Below, piece after piece: positions 5,150 through 22,789 of a stretch of DNA of 40,053 nucleotides. Origin of the DNA: Magnetovibrio sp. (lineage in GTDB: Bacteria; Pseudomonadota; Alphaproteobacteria; Rhodospirillales; Casp-alpha2); the NCBI GenBank assembly GCA_002709525.1, contig PARE01000059.1:3490-43542 (forward strand). The letters run 5' to 3'. The position numbers were made by a program, and so were the translations under genes. The first letter of the stretch is position 1. Each line of letters begins with the position of its first letter. The notes under the pieces were generated by a model, which did not search any database, was not told where the DNA came from, and saw only the letters and a list, made by a program, of their open reading frames with translations.

Positions 5150-5428
5150 GTATTCTATGTTCTCTCGATGTCTGCCGTTCTCTGTAATAGCCGGTTGGTG
5201 AATTTTAGACAATTCTTGGTTTGTTTTGGTTTGCGAGTATTTTCTGCGGCTGATATTCGCGCACACAATGCAAATGAATGTCCTGGAGAGATGTTTGGAT
5301 ATGCCTTAGACGCATGGCCTGACCATCATAGCGCAGCTTGCTAAAATTGCCTTTCGTGCCCGGGGGCGATAGGTTATGTAAGGTTTTGTACCTGGGCGCC
5401 AGTAATAGTTTTGAGAAGGATGTTATAC

Positions 5429-5818
5429 ATGGCTCGAATTGCTGTTTATGAACCCGCCGGCTGCTGTTCCACCGGTGTATGTGATCCCGCCACCAGCGAC
5501 GCAATGGCGCAGTTTGCCTCCGCCATGGAAGGCCTGAACCAGCAAGGCGTGGATGTAGAACGTTTTGAGCTCTCAAGCCGCCCTGACGCTTTTGCGTCTA
5601 ATGAGGCGGTTAAGGCCGCACTGGAAAGCGACGGTGTGGATTGCCTGCCGCTGATCATGGTCGACGGTGAAATCGTGTCCAAGGGTATGTATCTGGATAA
5701 GGATGCGTTGGGTGCCAAGGTTGGTATTGAAATAGCTGCTGCTGTGCAGTCGTGTTGCGGCCCCTCTGATGTCAAGGCCGAAGCCAAGGAAGAAGAAACT
5801 AGCGCCTGCTGCAGTTAA
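5429..5818 (+). CDS. arsD: Arsenite metallochaperone ArsD
   Basis: A 129-aa cytosolic protein that passes As(III)/Sb(III) to the ArsA ATPase and can weakly repress ars operons. The functional cysteines C12, C13 and C18 (GCCSTGVC) fall exactly at the positions known for the E. coli plasmid ArsD. Two further vicinal pairs, C109-C110 and C127-C128, lie near the C terminus, as in the longer ArsD forms. The start is the ATG at 5429, which has AGAAGGA 9 nt upstream. An upstream TTG (5411) and ATG (5420) are in frame but overlap that ribosome site. arsA follows 11 nt after the stop, so the two are surely cotranscribed. No arsR, arsB, acr3 or arsC is visible in the window, which is unusual. Confidence 0.95.
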   Translation: MARIAVYEPAGCCSTGVCDPATSDAMAQFASAMEGLNQQGVDVERFELSSRPDAFASNEAVKAALESDGVDCLPLIMVDGEIVSKGMYLDKDALGAKVGIEIAAAVQSCCGPSDVKAEAKEEETSACCS

Positions 5819-5829
5819 GGAAGTCTCTC

Positions 5830-7575
5830 ATGCATGTCCTCGAGCACCCGACCCCGACGCTTTTTTTTACAGGCAAGGGAGGCGTTGGTAAGACTTCGCT
5901 ATCTTGCGCCACCGCCGTAGCTCTGGCTGATCGCGGCAAAAACGTGCTGTTGGTCTCAACGGACCCGGCCTCCAACATTCATGAGGTATTCGGTCAAGAC
6001 ATAGGTACTGATCCAACGCCGATCACGGATGTCGACGGTTTGAAGGCCATGAACGTAGACCCGGAGGCCGCTGCCGAGGCTTATCGGGAACGCGTCGTCG
6101 GCCCCTACCGTGGCGTATTGCCGGATTCTGCTATCCAGAGCATCGAAGAACAGTTCGCCGGTGCCTGCACAGTTGAGATCGCCGCATTTGACGAGTTCGC
6201 GAAGTTGTTGGCTAATGAGGACGTGACCGCTGACTTCGATCATGTGGTTTTTGATACCGCGCCTACGGGGCATACTCTGCGTCTTTTGACCCTGCCCACG
6301 GCCTGGACAGGTTTCATCGAGGATGCCGCGGCTGGGACATCGTGCATCGGGCCGTTAGAAGGTATGAAGCAGCAGCGCTCGTTGTACGAGGGCGCGGTAA
6401 ATGCGCTCGCGAACAAGCATGAAACCACCCTGGTCCTGGTGACGCGGCCGGACCGGGCAGCCGTGGATGAAGCCGCGCGCACCAGTGAGGAACTGGCCGA
6501 GATAGGTATCCGTAACCAGGCATTGGCCGTGAACGGTGTGTTCAAAGCGCATGACACCAGCGACATCGTGGCCGTAGCCATGGAGCGACGTGGTGGTGCT
6601 GCGTTGAGGGAATTACCGGCAGCGTTGGCGAGCTTAAAACGGCGCGACTTGCCGTTGAAGTCTGGTCAGGTCTTGGGCGTTGCGTCGCTTCGTTCGTTGC
6701 TTGCTGACCAGGATCTAAAGCCGGTTGAATCCGTTGATATGGTAGCCCTGCCAGAGAATCTGGATGCTCTTGTTGATGACCTGGCCAAGAAGAACCATGG
6801 CGTCATCATGACTATGGGTAAAGGCGGCGTGGGCAAGACTTCGGTGGCTGCCTATGTAGCCGTAGCACTAGCGAAGCGGGGCCACAAGGTTCACCTTTCA
6901 ACGACCGATCCTGCTGCTCATGTAGCCCAGACGGTGACGGACATTCCCGACAATCTGGAAATTGGCCGCATCGATCCGGAGATTGAGGTTGAGAAATACC
7001 GCGAAGAAGTAATGTCCACCACCGGTGCGAACTTGGATGAAACTGGTCTGGCGCTATTGGAAGAGGATCTGAGCTCGCCTTGCACGGAAGAGATCGCCGT
7101 GTTCCGAGCCTTCGCCCGCACGGTGCACGAAGCCACGGATAGTATCGTCGTCATGGACACAGCGCCCACGGGTCATACCATTCTTCTTCTGGATGCGGCG
7201 GAGAGCTATCACCGTGAAGTGGGTCGCCTGACGGACGGTGTGCCGGAGGCTGTGGCAAACCTTTTGCCTCGCCTACGTGACCCGGACTTTACTCGCGTGC
7301 TGATCTGTACGGTTCCGGAAGCTACTCCCGTTCATGAAGCCGCCGATCTGCAACGTGATCTTCAGCGCGCGGGCATGGACCCGACAGCCTGGGTGATCAA
7401 TATGTCACTCGCGCCTTTAAGCGTAACGGACCCTATTTTGGTTGCGCGTAAGGGCCAGGAAGCTCGCTATATAGCGGAAGTGATTAACGATCATGCGACG
7501 CGTGCCGCTCTGGTACCATGGAGGGAAGACTCGGTCTGGGGCATGACCGACGTCACGGCTAGCGACGCGGCCTGA
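5830..7575 (+). CDS. arsA: Arsenite-stimulated pump ATPase ArsA
   Basis: A 581-aa full-length ArsA with two homologous ATPase halves. The Walker A motifs are TGKGGVGKTS at about 14-23 (A1) and MGKGGVGKTS at about 329-338 (A2). The Get3/ArsA signature DTAPTGHT occurs once in each half. The three metalloid-binding cysteines are all kept: C113 (GACTVE), C172 (TSCIGP) and C418 (SSPCTEE), matching C113/C172/C422 of the E. coli enzyme. ArsA energises export of arsenite or antimonite through ArsB or Acr3, accepting the metalloid from ArsD. A good AAGGA ribosome site lies 8 nt before the ATG. Because all catalytic and metal ligands are intact, the gene looks functional, although no membrane pump is encoded nearby. 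The partner is either elsewhere in the genome or this ATPase serves another role. Confidence 0.96.
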   Translation: MHVLEHPTPTLFFTGKGGVGKTSLSCATAVALADRGKNVLLVSTDPASNIHEVFGQDIGTDPTPITDVDGLKAMNVDPEAAAEAYRERVVGPYRGVLPDSAIQSIEEQFAGACTVEIAAFDEFAKLLANEDVTADFDHVVFDTAPTGHTLRLLTLPTAWTGFIEDAAAGTSCIGPLEGMKQQRSLYEGAVNALANKHETTLVLVTRPDRAAVDEAARTSEELAEIGIRNQALAVNGVFKAHDTSDIVAVAMERRGGAALRELPAALASLKRRDLPLKSGQVLGVASLRSLLADQDLKPVESVDMVALPENLDALVDDLAKKNHGVIMTMGKGGVGKTSVAAYVAVALAKRGHKVHLSTTDPAAHVAQTVTDIPDNLEIGRIDPEIEVEKYREEVMSTTGANLDETGLALLEEDLSSPCTEEIAVFRAFARTVHEATDSIVVMDTAPTGHTILLLDAAESYHREVGRLTDGVPEAVANLLPRLRDPDFTRVLICTVPEATPVHEAADLQRDLQRAGMDPTAWVINMSLAPLSVTDPILVARKGQEARYIAEVINDHATRAALVPWREDSVWGMTDVTASDAA

Positions 7576-7626
7576 ATCTCTGGAATTTTGAGGGCAAGTC
7601 TTCACGTTAAAAGGCTACTATCTATC

Positions 7627-7644
7627 TTATAAGCATGCTTATAA
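7627..7644. promoter_or_regulatory. Perfect 18-bp palindrome, probable MarR operator
   Basis: TTATAAGCATGCTTATAA reads identically on both strands and lies 56 nt before the marR start codon. It contains a TATAAT hexamer at its right edge (7640-7645). A related imperfect copy, GTAAGCATATAAC, follows at 7664-7676. MarR-family repressors bind palindromes of this size in their own promoters, so autorepression of the marR-hlyD unit is the likely role. This is inferred from position and symmetry. Confidence 0.65.
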
Positions 7645-7700
7645 TAATCGTGCATGTAATCGTGTAAGCATATAACTGATCGTTTCCCTTGGGATTGCGA

Positions 7701-8213
7701 ATGAGTGACAACCAATATTTTCTGGATCGCAGCCTAGGGTTTCTTCTAGGAGACGCTTCACGATTGCTGCGTAAGCGTTTTGATCGGTTGGCTCGCTCCT
7801 TCGGCATGACTAGGGCGCAATGGCGGGTCATCGCCGTGCTCCGACGCGACGAGGGCATAAACCAGACGGCCATGGCCGATATTATGGAGATCGAACCTAT
7901 TACCCTCGGTCGTCACATTGATCGGCTGGAGGAAGCGGGCTGGGTTGAGCGCCGTCCTGATCCAGATGACCGGCGTGCATGGCGCATTTTCCTTACCGAC
8001 AAGGTGCAACCGGTATTGGAGGAAATGGAAAATATTGCCATCGAGGTGCGTAACGATGCCATGGTCGATTTTTCCTCCATGGAGCGCGAGCGGTTCATCG
8101 ATGATCTGATCCGCGTGAAATCAAATTTGGCCGACGCGATTCGCCGAGACGCCCAGGAAGTCGATCGTGTCCCTGAGAAGACGTGGGCGGTGGGGGGGCG
8201 CCGCGATGGCTGA
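7701..8213 (+). CDS. MarR-family transcriptional regulator
   Basis: A 170-aa protein with the MarR winged-helix fold. It has an N-terminal dimerisation helix, a recognition region (MTRAQWRVIAVLRR, then NQTAMADIMEIEPITLGRHI) and the wing signature RRPDPDDRRAWRIFLT, a classic MarR hallmark. It probably represses the downstream membrane fusion gene and itself through the palindrome at 7627-7644, and is released by small phenolic or toxic ligands. The ATG at 7701 was chosen over an in-frame TTG at 7689, since it gives the usual MarR N terminus, although no strong ribosome site is visible for either. The gene overlaps hlyD by 8 nt (ATGGCTGA), a coupling typical of marR-emrA operons. Ligand and targets are unknown. 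Confidence 0.92.
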   Translation: MSDNQYFLDRSLGFLLGDASRLLRKRFDRLARSFGMTRAQWRVIAVLRRDEGINQTAMADIMEIEPITLGRHIDRLEEAGWVERRPDPDDRRAWRIFLTDKVQPVLEEMENIAIEVRNDAMVDFSSMERERFIDDLIRVKSNLADAIRRDAQEVDRVPEKTWAVGGRRDG

Positions 8214-9330
8214 GGAAGCGCCTGTCTTAGACGAGAACAAACAAGCCATAGGCTCTAGCGTCAAACGGAGCTCTCGCCGCGTCGTAGCGGTGACCCTTTT
8301 CTCCCTGGTGGGACCTGTGGCCATCGGCACCGGGGCGCTTTACATGTACGCAACCGGTGGACGCACCGTATCAACAGAAAACGCTTATGTAAAAGCAGAT
8401 AAGATCGCTATCAGTGCGGACATCTCTGGCCGAGTGGTACGGGTCAATACCACCGCGAACCAGACTGTACGCACGGGTGACGTTTTGTTCCGCTTGGATG
8501 AAGAACCCTTCCGGATCGCCAAGTATCGCGCAGAGGCCAAATTGGAGGCGGCACGCCAAACCATTGCCGCCTTGAAGGCTGAGTACCGTCAGAAAATCGC
8601 CGAACACAAATTGGCCAAAGGTGATATCGGTTACTACCAGCGCGGCGTGGATCGGCAACGCAAGTTGCACGGGAAGGGTTTTGCATCGCAGAGTAAACTG
8701 GATGACGCGGAACAAAACCTACGCGCCGCTCGGGATCGGCTAGCGACGATTACTCAGGACATCGCCCGGGTGCGGGCGCGTCTTGGTGGGCGGGTCGACA
8801 TCAACGCCGACAATCACCCAACCGTGCAGGAGGCTGTGGCCGTTCTGGATGAGGCGAACCTGAATCTTAAGCGCACCGCAGTCATTGCGCCGAGCCGCGG
8901 GATCATTACTAATTTTGGCCTGGAGGTTGGCGAGTATATCGAGGAGGGTAAGCCAATATTCTCCTTGGTCGGCACTGATAACTTTTGGGTAAGCGCCAAC
9001 TATAAGGAAACGGAGTTGACCAACGTCCGTGTTGGCCAACCTGCCAAGTTCCGGGTGGATACCTATCCAGACCGGGTGATTCAAGCAGTGGTCGCATCCA
9101 TCTCGCCAGCCACGGGGGCTGAGTTCGCGTTATTGCCGCCACAGAACGCGTCGGGTAATTGGGTCAAGGTGGTGCAACGCCTGCCGGTCCGCTTGGAGAT
9201 CGTCGACACGGGGAAAATACCTCGGCTTCATGCCGGGATGAGTGTCATCGTTGACATAGATACTGGCCACAAACGTCAGTTACCGCCATTTCTATCTAAT
9301 GCGGTTACCTGGATGAACGATCGGCTATGA
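8206..9330 (+). CDS. HlyD/EmrA-type membrane fusion protein (efflux adaptor)
   Basis: A 374-aa periplasmic adaptor that joins an inner-membrane exporter to an outer-membrane channel. It has a short cytoplasmic N terminus, one membrane helix at about residues 25-47 (VTLFSLVGPVAIGTGALYMY), and then the first half of a biotinyl-lipoyl-like domain (SADISGRVVRVNTTANQTV, GDVLFRLDEEPF). A long helical hairpin follows (about residues 100-200, rich in Ala, Arg, Lys and Gln), and then the returning lipoyl half and beta-barrel (TAVIAPSRGIITNFGLEVGEYI). It starts inside the end of marR, so the two are cotranscribed. The usual partner, an EmrB-type MFS pump, does not follow. Only a 31-codon ORF overlaps its stop codon, so the efflux system looks incomplete here. 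Confidence 0.92.
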   Translation: MAEEAPVLDENKQAIGSSVKRSSRRVVAVTLFSLVGPVAIGTGALYMYATGGRTVSTENAYVKADKIAISADISGRVVRVNTTANQTVRTGDVLFRLDEEPFRIAKYRAEAKLEAARQTIAALKAEYRQKIAEHKLAKGDIGYYQRGVDRQRKLHGKGFASQSKLDDAEQNLRAARDRLATITQDIARVRARLGGRVDINADNHPTVQEAVAVLDEANLNLKRTAVIAPSRGIITNFGLEVGEYIEEGKPIFSLVGTDNFWVSANYKETELTNVRVGQPAKFRVDTYPDRVIQAVVASISPATGAEFALLPPQNASGNWVKVVQRLPVRLEIVDTGKIPRLHAGMSVIVDIDTGHKRQLPPFLSNAVTWMNDRL

Positions 9331-9422
9331 CCTCAGGGGCTGGCCTTGCCAACATCTTGTTCTGTTGCCTGTCATTGGTGTTATTCATGTCAAGCGGCGA
9401 GCCTATGCAGGCGGAATCCTAA
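9327..9422 (+). CDS. 31-aa ORF coupled to hlyD, possible remnant of an emrB-like gene
   Basis: The ATG overlaps the hlyD stop in ATGA. The 31 codons encode one hydrophobic stretch (ANILFCCLSLVLFM) and end at TAA 9420-9422. EmrB-type MFS exporters normally start at this place and begin with a similar first membrane helix, so this may be the surviving start of a deleted emrB. It could also be a genuine small membrane protein or chance. No further MFS sequence is seen in the next 100 nt. Confidence 0.35.
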   Translation: MTSGAGLANILFCCLSLVLFMSSGEPMQAES

Positions 9423-21673: not shown

Positions 21674-22789
21674 TCAGACAACGCCGACTTGTTCCGCTAC
21701 TTTATCGGCGATGGCTAACGATGAGGTTAGGCCAGGGCTTTCGATGCCGTATAAATTAATCAGGCCGGCTATGCCGTGTTTGGTCGGGCCCTGGATCATG
21801 AAGTCGGCGGCGTACTTGGCCTGGTCCGGTCCCCCGAGTTTTGGTCGAATGCCCACATACCCAGGTTGTAGGGCGCCGTCGCTGAGGCCCCGCCAGTAAC
21901 GGCGGATAGCGTCGTAGAAGCTATCCGCTCGGGCTGTGTCGATCTCGTAGTCCGGTTCATCCACCCAGGAGACGTCGGGGCCGAACTTGGTCTGACCTCC
22001 AAGGTCCAAGGTTGAATGGGTGCCCAAACCGCCCGGTACCGGCACAGGATAGATGAGGTGGTTGAACGGGCTTTTCCCGGTCAGGGTGAAGTAAGTCCCC
22101 TTGGCGTAAAAGAGGGGCGGGATGGTGTTTTTTGGGATGCCTGAGATAGTGTGCGCCAGGGGTTGCGCGCCGAGCCCTGCCGAATTAATCATAGTCCGGC
22201 AATGCAGCGTCATGGCGTTGGTGCCGCCGGTCTCAATTGTGATGCCGCCATTCTCGACCCGACCGCCAACAACCGGACTCATGAACGCGATCATGCCACC
22301 GTGGGCTTCCATGTCGCCTTGAAAGGCTAGCATCAGGCCGTGCGAGTCAATAATTCCGGTGGACGGTGATAGAAGCGCGCGAACAGCATGAAGATTTGGT
22401 TCTAAGTCTTGCAGTTCATCCGTGTCCACCCACGTCAGGTCGGTTACGCCGTTGGCGGCGGCCTTCTGCTTAGTGGCTTCAAGGGCGGAGATTTCCTGCT
22501 CCGTTGTGGCCACAACGAGTTTTCCAAGGCGCTTGTGGGCTACCCCGTGGCTTTCACAGTATTTATATAGATTAGTTTTGCCGGCGACGCAGCAGGTGGC
22601 CTTTAGGCTGCCTTTGGCGTAATAGATTCCGGCGTGAATTACTTCGGAATTTCTGGATGAGGTTCCCGTGCCGATATCATTGGCCGCTTCCAGGACTATT
22701 ACTTCACGCCCAGCTATGGCCAAGCGGCGCGCGATGGCTAGACCGACGACGCCGGCGCCTACTACAATGCAATCTACAGTTTCGGTCAT
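21674..22789 (-). CDS. FAD-dependent oxidoreductase, L-2-hydroxyglutarate oxidase (LhgO)-like
   Basis: A 371-aa DAO-family flavoprotein. The N-terminal FAD motif is [19 protein letters not shown] with the acidic end VIVLEA. The LhgO-type segment [18 protein letters not shown] follows at about residues 47-64, and a C-terminal FAD contact is seen in [18 protein letters not shown]. The family oxidises L-2-hydroxyglutarate to 2-oxoglutarate and passes electrons to the quinone pool, with a metabolite-repair role. Related members act on other hydroxyacids. The start ATG at 22789 has no strong ribosome site upstream. It converges with the D-2-hydroxyacid dehydrogenase, and both could act on short 2-hydroxyacids, although no operon links them. 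Confidence 0.88.

Follow-up and report, generated by a model that had tools for sequence, protein, structure and literature searches.

A conserved palindrome as the very probable operator of a marR-emrA operon without its pump gene

We here describe a perfect 18-bp palindrome, O1, which lies directly 5' of a MarR-family repressor gene in the 40,053-nucleotide stretch of DNA under analysis (the window) and which, judged from comparative sequence evidence, is very probably the autoregulatory operator of a marR-emrAB-type efflux operon. The explanation that we favor, and in which we have high confidence as a whole, is that a MarR dimer at O1 represses marR-emrA, that a second dimer probably occupies a neighboring site, O2, and that the pump gene emrB has been lost. 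An earlier note, made from the letters of the window alone, had reported the palindrome, an imperfect copy downstream of it and a marR-hlyD unit, and had proposed an autoregulatory operator with a regulon that could be traced by motif search. The features of the region are the following.

5411-5818: arsD, upstream of arsA
5830-7575: arsA, immediately upstream of the O1-marR region
7601..7606, + strand: probable -35 hexamer of the marR promoter, TTCACG (TTGACG/TTGACC in relatives), placed by its spacing
7623..7630, + strand: probable -10 region over the left end of O1, at 16-18 nt from the -35 hexamer
7627..7644, no strand: candidate operator O1, perfect palindrome TTATAAGCATGCTTATAA with core TAAGCNNGCTTA at 7630-7641, conserved 5' of orthologous marR
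7645..7656, no strand: candidate operator O2, degenerate, TAATCGTGCATG, 15 bp from O1, with 7 of 10 core positions, from offset scoring
7665..7676, + strand: partial copy TAAGCATATAAC, a genus-limited half-site at +35, with 5 of 10 core positions
7701..8213, + strand: marR, 170 aa, winged-helix repressor with recognition helix IEPITLGRHIDRL (Pfam MarR 2.7e-16)
8206..9330, + strand: hlyD/emrA, membrane-fusion adaptor (Pfam HlyD_3 2.4e-18, HlyD_D23)
9327..9422, + strand: emrB deletion scar, a 31-codon ATG-initiated frame MTSGAGLANILFCCLSLVLFMSSGEPMQAES that matches the EmrB C-terminus

The palindrome and its conservation 5' of marR

The protein encoded directly 3' of O1 has a Pfam MarR score above the cut-off, and marR and hlyD/emrA share 8 bp, the end of the one and the start of the other. 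A MarR-type regulator and then an EmrA adaptor is the gene order of an EmrRAB efflux operon. Further 3' are genes for a dehydrogenase of the Iso_dh family and an aminotransferase of class V. Among named genomes, the closest is a metagenome assembly entitled 'uncultured Rhodospirillaceae bacterium', in which MarR is 85% identical. On the 5' side, arsA is of double length and arsD-arsA adjoin marR throughout the genus; no arsB, acr3 or arsR was recognizable among the neighboring frames looked at (arsD-arsA, 5411-7575).

The self-complementarity described in the earlier note is confirmed over all 18 bp of TTATAAGCATGCTTATAA at 7627-7644, an inverted repeat without spacer, and this is the sole copy at up to three mismatches both in the 40-kb window and in the whole 3,175,648-base (3.18 Mb) assembly. 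The bare palindrome is unremarkable, because about 0.4 perfect palindromes of at least 18 bp are expected from dinucleotide shuffles of the window and 1 is seen; what exceeds chance is its place 5' of marR together with its conservation there. A self-complementary AT-rich intergenic stretch that arose by chance would fit this near-expected count, but the same sequence recurs 5' of orthologous marR genes far more often than in shuffled regions, which already refutes chance, and it keeps a set distance to a second site, so that we give this reading practically no weight. Another perfect palindrome in the window, of 16 bp (22502-22517), lies within an FAD-dependent oxidase-like frame on the minus strand (21674-22789) and is at chance level.

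Conservation upstream of orthologous marR genes was the check on which the proposed operator could have failed. MarR orthologs were drawn from two sources, 48 genomes of the family and a collection with one genome per species, and TAAGCNNGCTTA is kept 5' of marR in 7 of 9 close family orthologs (mean of 0.005 in shuffled regions) and in 19 of 30 other orthologs (mean of 0.015). A relaxed core, TAAGNNNNCTTA, is found in 8 of 9 close and 5 of 16 more distant family orthologs and in 21 of the 30 others. The 29 core-bearing sites agree in both arms and differ in the two central bases. Since the sites were picked by their core TAAG/CTTA, the constancy of these eight bases is in part a product of the selection, which does not account for the C and G adjoining TAAG/CTTA, for the T and A on the flanks or for the free center. 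This pattern of fixed arms and free center in 29 orthologous loci argues for the autoregulatory operator that the earlier note had suggested. Nearly all core-bearing marR loci have hlyD next, and the same O1 core precedes MarR orthologs of 37-48% identity, again followed by hlyD, in Bradyrhizobium, Tardiphaga and other alphaproteobacteria. The core TAAGCNNGCTTA is absent 5' of marR in some orthologs (L011-L014); these marR-hlyD loci have no TAAG core, yet another conserved stretch, TTGCCTTGCATATAGTNTNCATGG, stands before marR. Two MarR paralogs of the window's own genome (L090, L091), both within operons, have no such site.

The core is kept at marR also where arsA is not upstream. On the strand of arsA the repeat follows that gene, where an RNA hairpin or arsA terminator would also be placed, but it persists at loci without arsA upstream, it has no loop, few G-C pairs and no T run, and a scan gives no terminator-like site; a role in arsA termination is therefore extremely improbable.

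Promoter, second site and recognition helix

In 7 of 9 family members the TAAGC core is preceded, at 29-30 nt counted from the first base of the hexamer, by TTGACG, TTGACC or TTGGCG (in the window, TTCACG), and the -10 region of relatives reads TATTAT, TAATAT or TATTTT. A TTGAC-like hexamer at that spacing was not found in L007 or L010, TTGAC was not seen in the Rhizobiales orthologs, and a consensus promoter scan listed no promoter on the + strand. Because the TTGAC-like -35 hexamer stands at a set 29-30 nt before the core, O1 probably overlaps the -10 region and start of the marR promoter. An operator over the -10 is a usual layout for repression by blocking RNA polymerase. The TATAAT that the earlier note had seen at one edge of the palindrome is indeed present, at 7640-7645 on the right edge, but we rejected it as the promoter -10, since it is not conserved: orthologs have TATACC, CATAAT, TATATT, TACATT or TATTAT at this position.

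A dimer of the downstream-encoded MarR would bind O1 through the core TAAGCNNGCTTA and, lying over the -10 and start, would block RNA polymerase and repress marR together with the overlapping emrA/hlyD. If EmrR and SlyA are a guide, the repressor would be released by a small ligand, perhaps a drug or aromatic acid.

A second MarR dimer probably binds the adjacent, degenerate O2, 15 bp further. When every offset from -45 to +60 was scored against the core in two ortholog groups, +15 ranked second in both, behind 0 itself (z 4.9 with n = 9 and z 5.1 with n = 20; z is inflated by relatedness inside each group). The agreement of two groups on +15 is hard to explain unless the second site is real, and in some Rhizobiales O2 is nearly perfect (TAAGCTTGGTTA, 9 of 10 positions). 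As for the imperfect copy reported 20 bp downstream, it exists at 7665-7676, where TAAGCATATAAC starts about 20 bp after the palindrome, but it is common only to the two closest genomes (L003, L004); the conserved second site is the one at +15 instead.

Operator and recognition helix vary together. MarR proteins with helix type PITL (also AITM or PISL) are found with the site TAAGCNNGCTTA, those with EPITVARLVDRLE and near variants (L039, L046, L049, L054, L060) with TAACGNNCCTTA or TAAGCNACGTTA, those with KASAGRLIDKLE or KATAGRVIDKLE (L015-L026) mostly with GTAAGNATNCTTAC or GTAACNATNCTTAC, and those with KAALGRMLDRL (L011-L014) with none of these operator variants. This joint change of helix and site is the best support, short of binding, that this MarR reads O1. 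The EPITVARLVDRLE-helix branch (L046, L049, L050, L054, L056, L060, L039) appears to be a natural specificity variant with an altered operator.

The same co-variation bears on the reading that O1 belongs to another regulator, for example of arsD-arsA or a global one, and that MarR acts elsewhere. Such a reading could draw on the position of arsD-arsA immediately upstream in the genus and on the fact that we infer the operator identity of O1, but the site is found at marR even at loci that have no arsA, changes along with the MarR recognition helix and, unlike the site of a global regulator, is single copy in the genome. We consider it quite improbable, and retain MarR as the protein that would bind O1.

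The motif search that the earlier note had recommended did not yield a regulon. Exact WTAAGCNNGCTTAW, the core with flanking A/T, occurs at one place in the genome assembly (about 82% complete), and one-mismatch matches were found at 13 further places in the genome compared with 29 for a reversed control; 11 of these 13 lie inside open frames of more than 200 codons. An order-wide pattern scan gave matches at about control level, with no evident second target family. From these counts, MarR looks like a local, single-target regulator.

Loss of emrB and the remaining adaptor

Both genes of the marR-hlyD unit are as the earlier note described them, but the unit is not intact: it is by ancestry a marR-emrA-emrB operon, from which emrB was deleted in this lineage. 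The EmrB (DHA2 MFS) pump gene is absent from the operon in the window and in the sister genomes G039 and G036, where the C-terminal scar alone is left and the space between hlyD and the dehydrogenase gene is about 120 bp. At locus L080 a full DHA2 EmrB gene (512 aa) lies between hlyD and the dehydrogenase gene, and the same gap holds an EmrB match in L081, L083, L084 and L085, with emrB intact in L081. The last EmrB residues, AILFCCLPLTLLLS, are matched by the middle of the scar (window, NILFCCLSLVLFMSS; G039, IILFCCLPLMFFMSN), and 0 of 1000 shuffles score as well against the EmrB C-terminus as the window scar peptide. The scar frame is open in all three genomes (the window; L078 and L079, 3' of hlyD), and because these were separately assembled it is not the accident of one assembly.

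With emrB deleted but for its last codons, the operator would now govern a repressor and an adaptor without a pump of their own. It could also be that operator and marR-hlyD are together the decaying relic of a dead efflux operon, functionless in this lineage, as the deletion of emrB, the changed marR and O1 arm of G036 and the MarR dN/dS of 0.16-0.38, less constrained than the neighboring genes, would suggest. However, this MarR dN/dS is well below 1, HlyD dN/dS in the emrB-less clade is 0.075-0.12, like that of the neighboring genes and indicative of purifying selection, and O1 is still a perfect palindrome in the window, all of which makes a functionless relic unlikely. In the sister genome G036 (G036:C3; L004/L079), an in-frame TGA stands in marR in place of the tryptophan codon of MTRAQW and the O1 arm is changed to GCTCA, which suggests that the regulator is decaying there; L007 (G022) has one TGA inside the marR match.

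If the adaptor is still in use under MarR control, a possible partner is the product of an orphan EmrB-type DHA2 pump gene that lies at G000:C20:30934-32460 (L133) with no adaptor nearby; it has orthologs in G036, G037 and G038, and HlyD is found in the examined flanks of 0 of the 4 copies. A newly gained replacement pump is not supported, given the orthologs in G037 and G038, which keep emrB, and because the gene predates the loss of emrB it offers no more than a possible partner for the orphan adaptor. A wider picture, which we offer as tentative but conceivable, is that this MarR and EmrA belong to a subfamily widespread among alphaproteobacteria and marked by an operator code of its own, O1 TAAGCNNGCTTA together with a degenerate O2 at a distance of exactly 15 bp; in one marine lineage this system may have survived deletion of its pump, the adaptor remaining under repressor control and working with a pump from elsewhere in the genome, such as that of the C20 gene.

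Comparison with known systems

The literature search for the motif, or for a characterized alphaproteobacterial MarR with TAAGC..GCTTA, found nothing relevant; LdtR was rejected as a lead for the motif, the matching text being a primer sequence. The present comparison offers a concrete candidate operator code for a large MarR group, from marine Rhodospirillaceae-like bacteria to Bradyrhizobium, in which no characterized member was found. Its natural variants tie recognition-helix residues to operator bases, and the window lineage provides a clean case of an efflux operon that is without its pump, yet has kept regulator, operator and adaptor.

Among proteins of solved structure, the nearest relatives of this MarR are PA3341 and SlyA. 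SlyA and RovA autorepress (PMC6401476, PMC2156107), belong to the same protein family and share a 12-bp palindrome of the same layout, and of the 10 specified positions of the SlyA consensus, TTAGCAAGCTAA (PMC2156107), 8 are identical in the present core. The difference lies at position 2/11, which is A/T in the present core TAAGCNNGCTTA and T/A in SlyA. The site is accordingly TAAGCATGCTTA and not of the SlyA type TTAGCAAGCTAA, with A at position 2 in 29 of 29 and T at position 11 in 28 of 29 sites, all of them selected on this core. SlyA has a large regulon, whereas a single local target linked to emrA is seen here, and no constant offset of +15 bp applies to the second sites of SlyA.

In C. 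violaceum, EmrR represses both emrCAB and its own gene, and salicylate releases it (PMC6249546). What EmrR (MprA)-EmrAB and C. violaceum EmrR-EmrCAB have in common with the present locus is a MarR-family repressor gene grouped with genes for an EmrA adaptor and, in the ancestral state, for an EmrB DHA2 pump. Unlike EmrR, the present MarR has its best structural matches in PA3341 and SlyA; emrB is missing in the window lineage, so a complete EmrAB is not found; and direct repression by C. violaceum EmrR extends to a few dozen genes (PMC6249546), compared with the one site found here. The uncharacterized marR-hlyD(-emrB) loci of Bradyrhizobium, Tardiphaga and other alphaproteobacteria share the O1 core, and some of them have an almost perfect O2, whereas the window lineage is without emrB, has a weaker O2 and carries the extra genus-specific half-site at +35. 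By gene and site this is a MarR-family regulated operon, and by analogy it would work like SlyA, RovA and EmrR.
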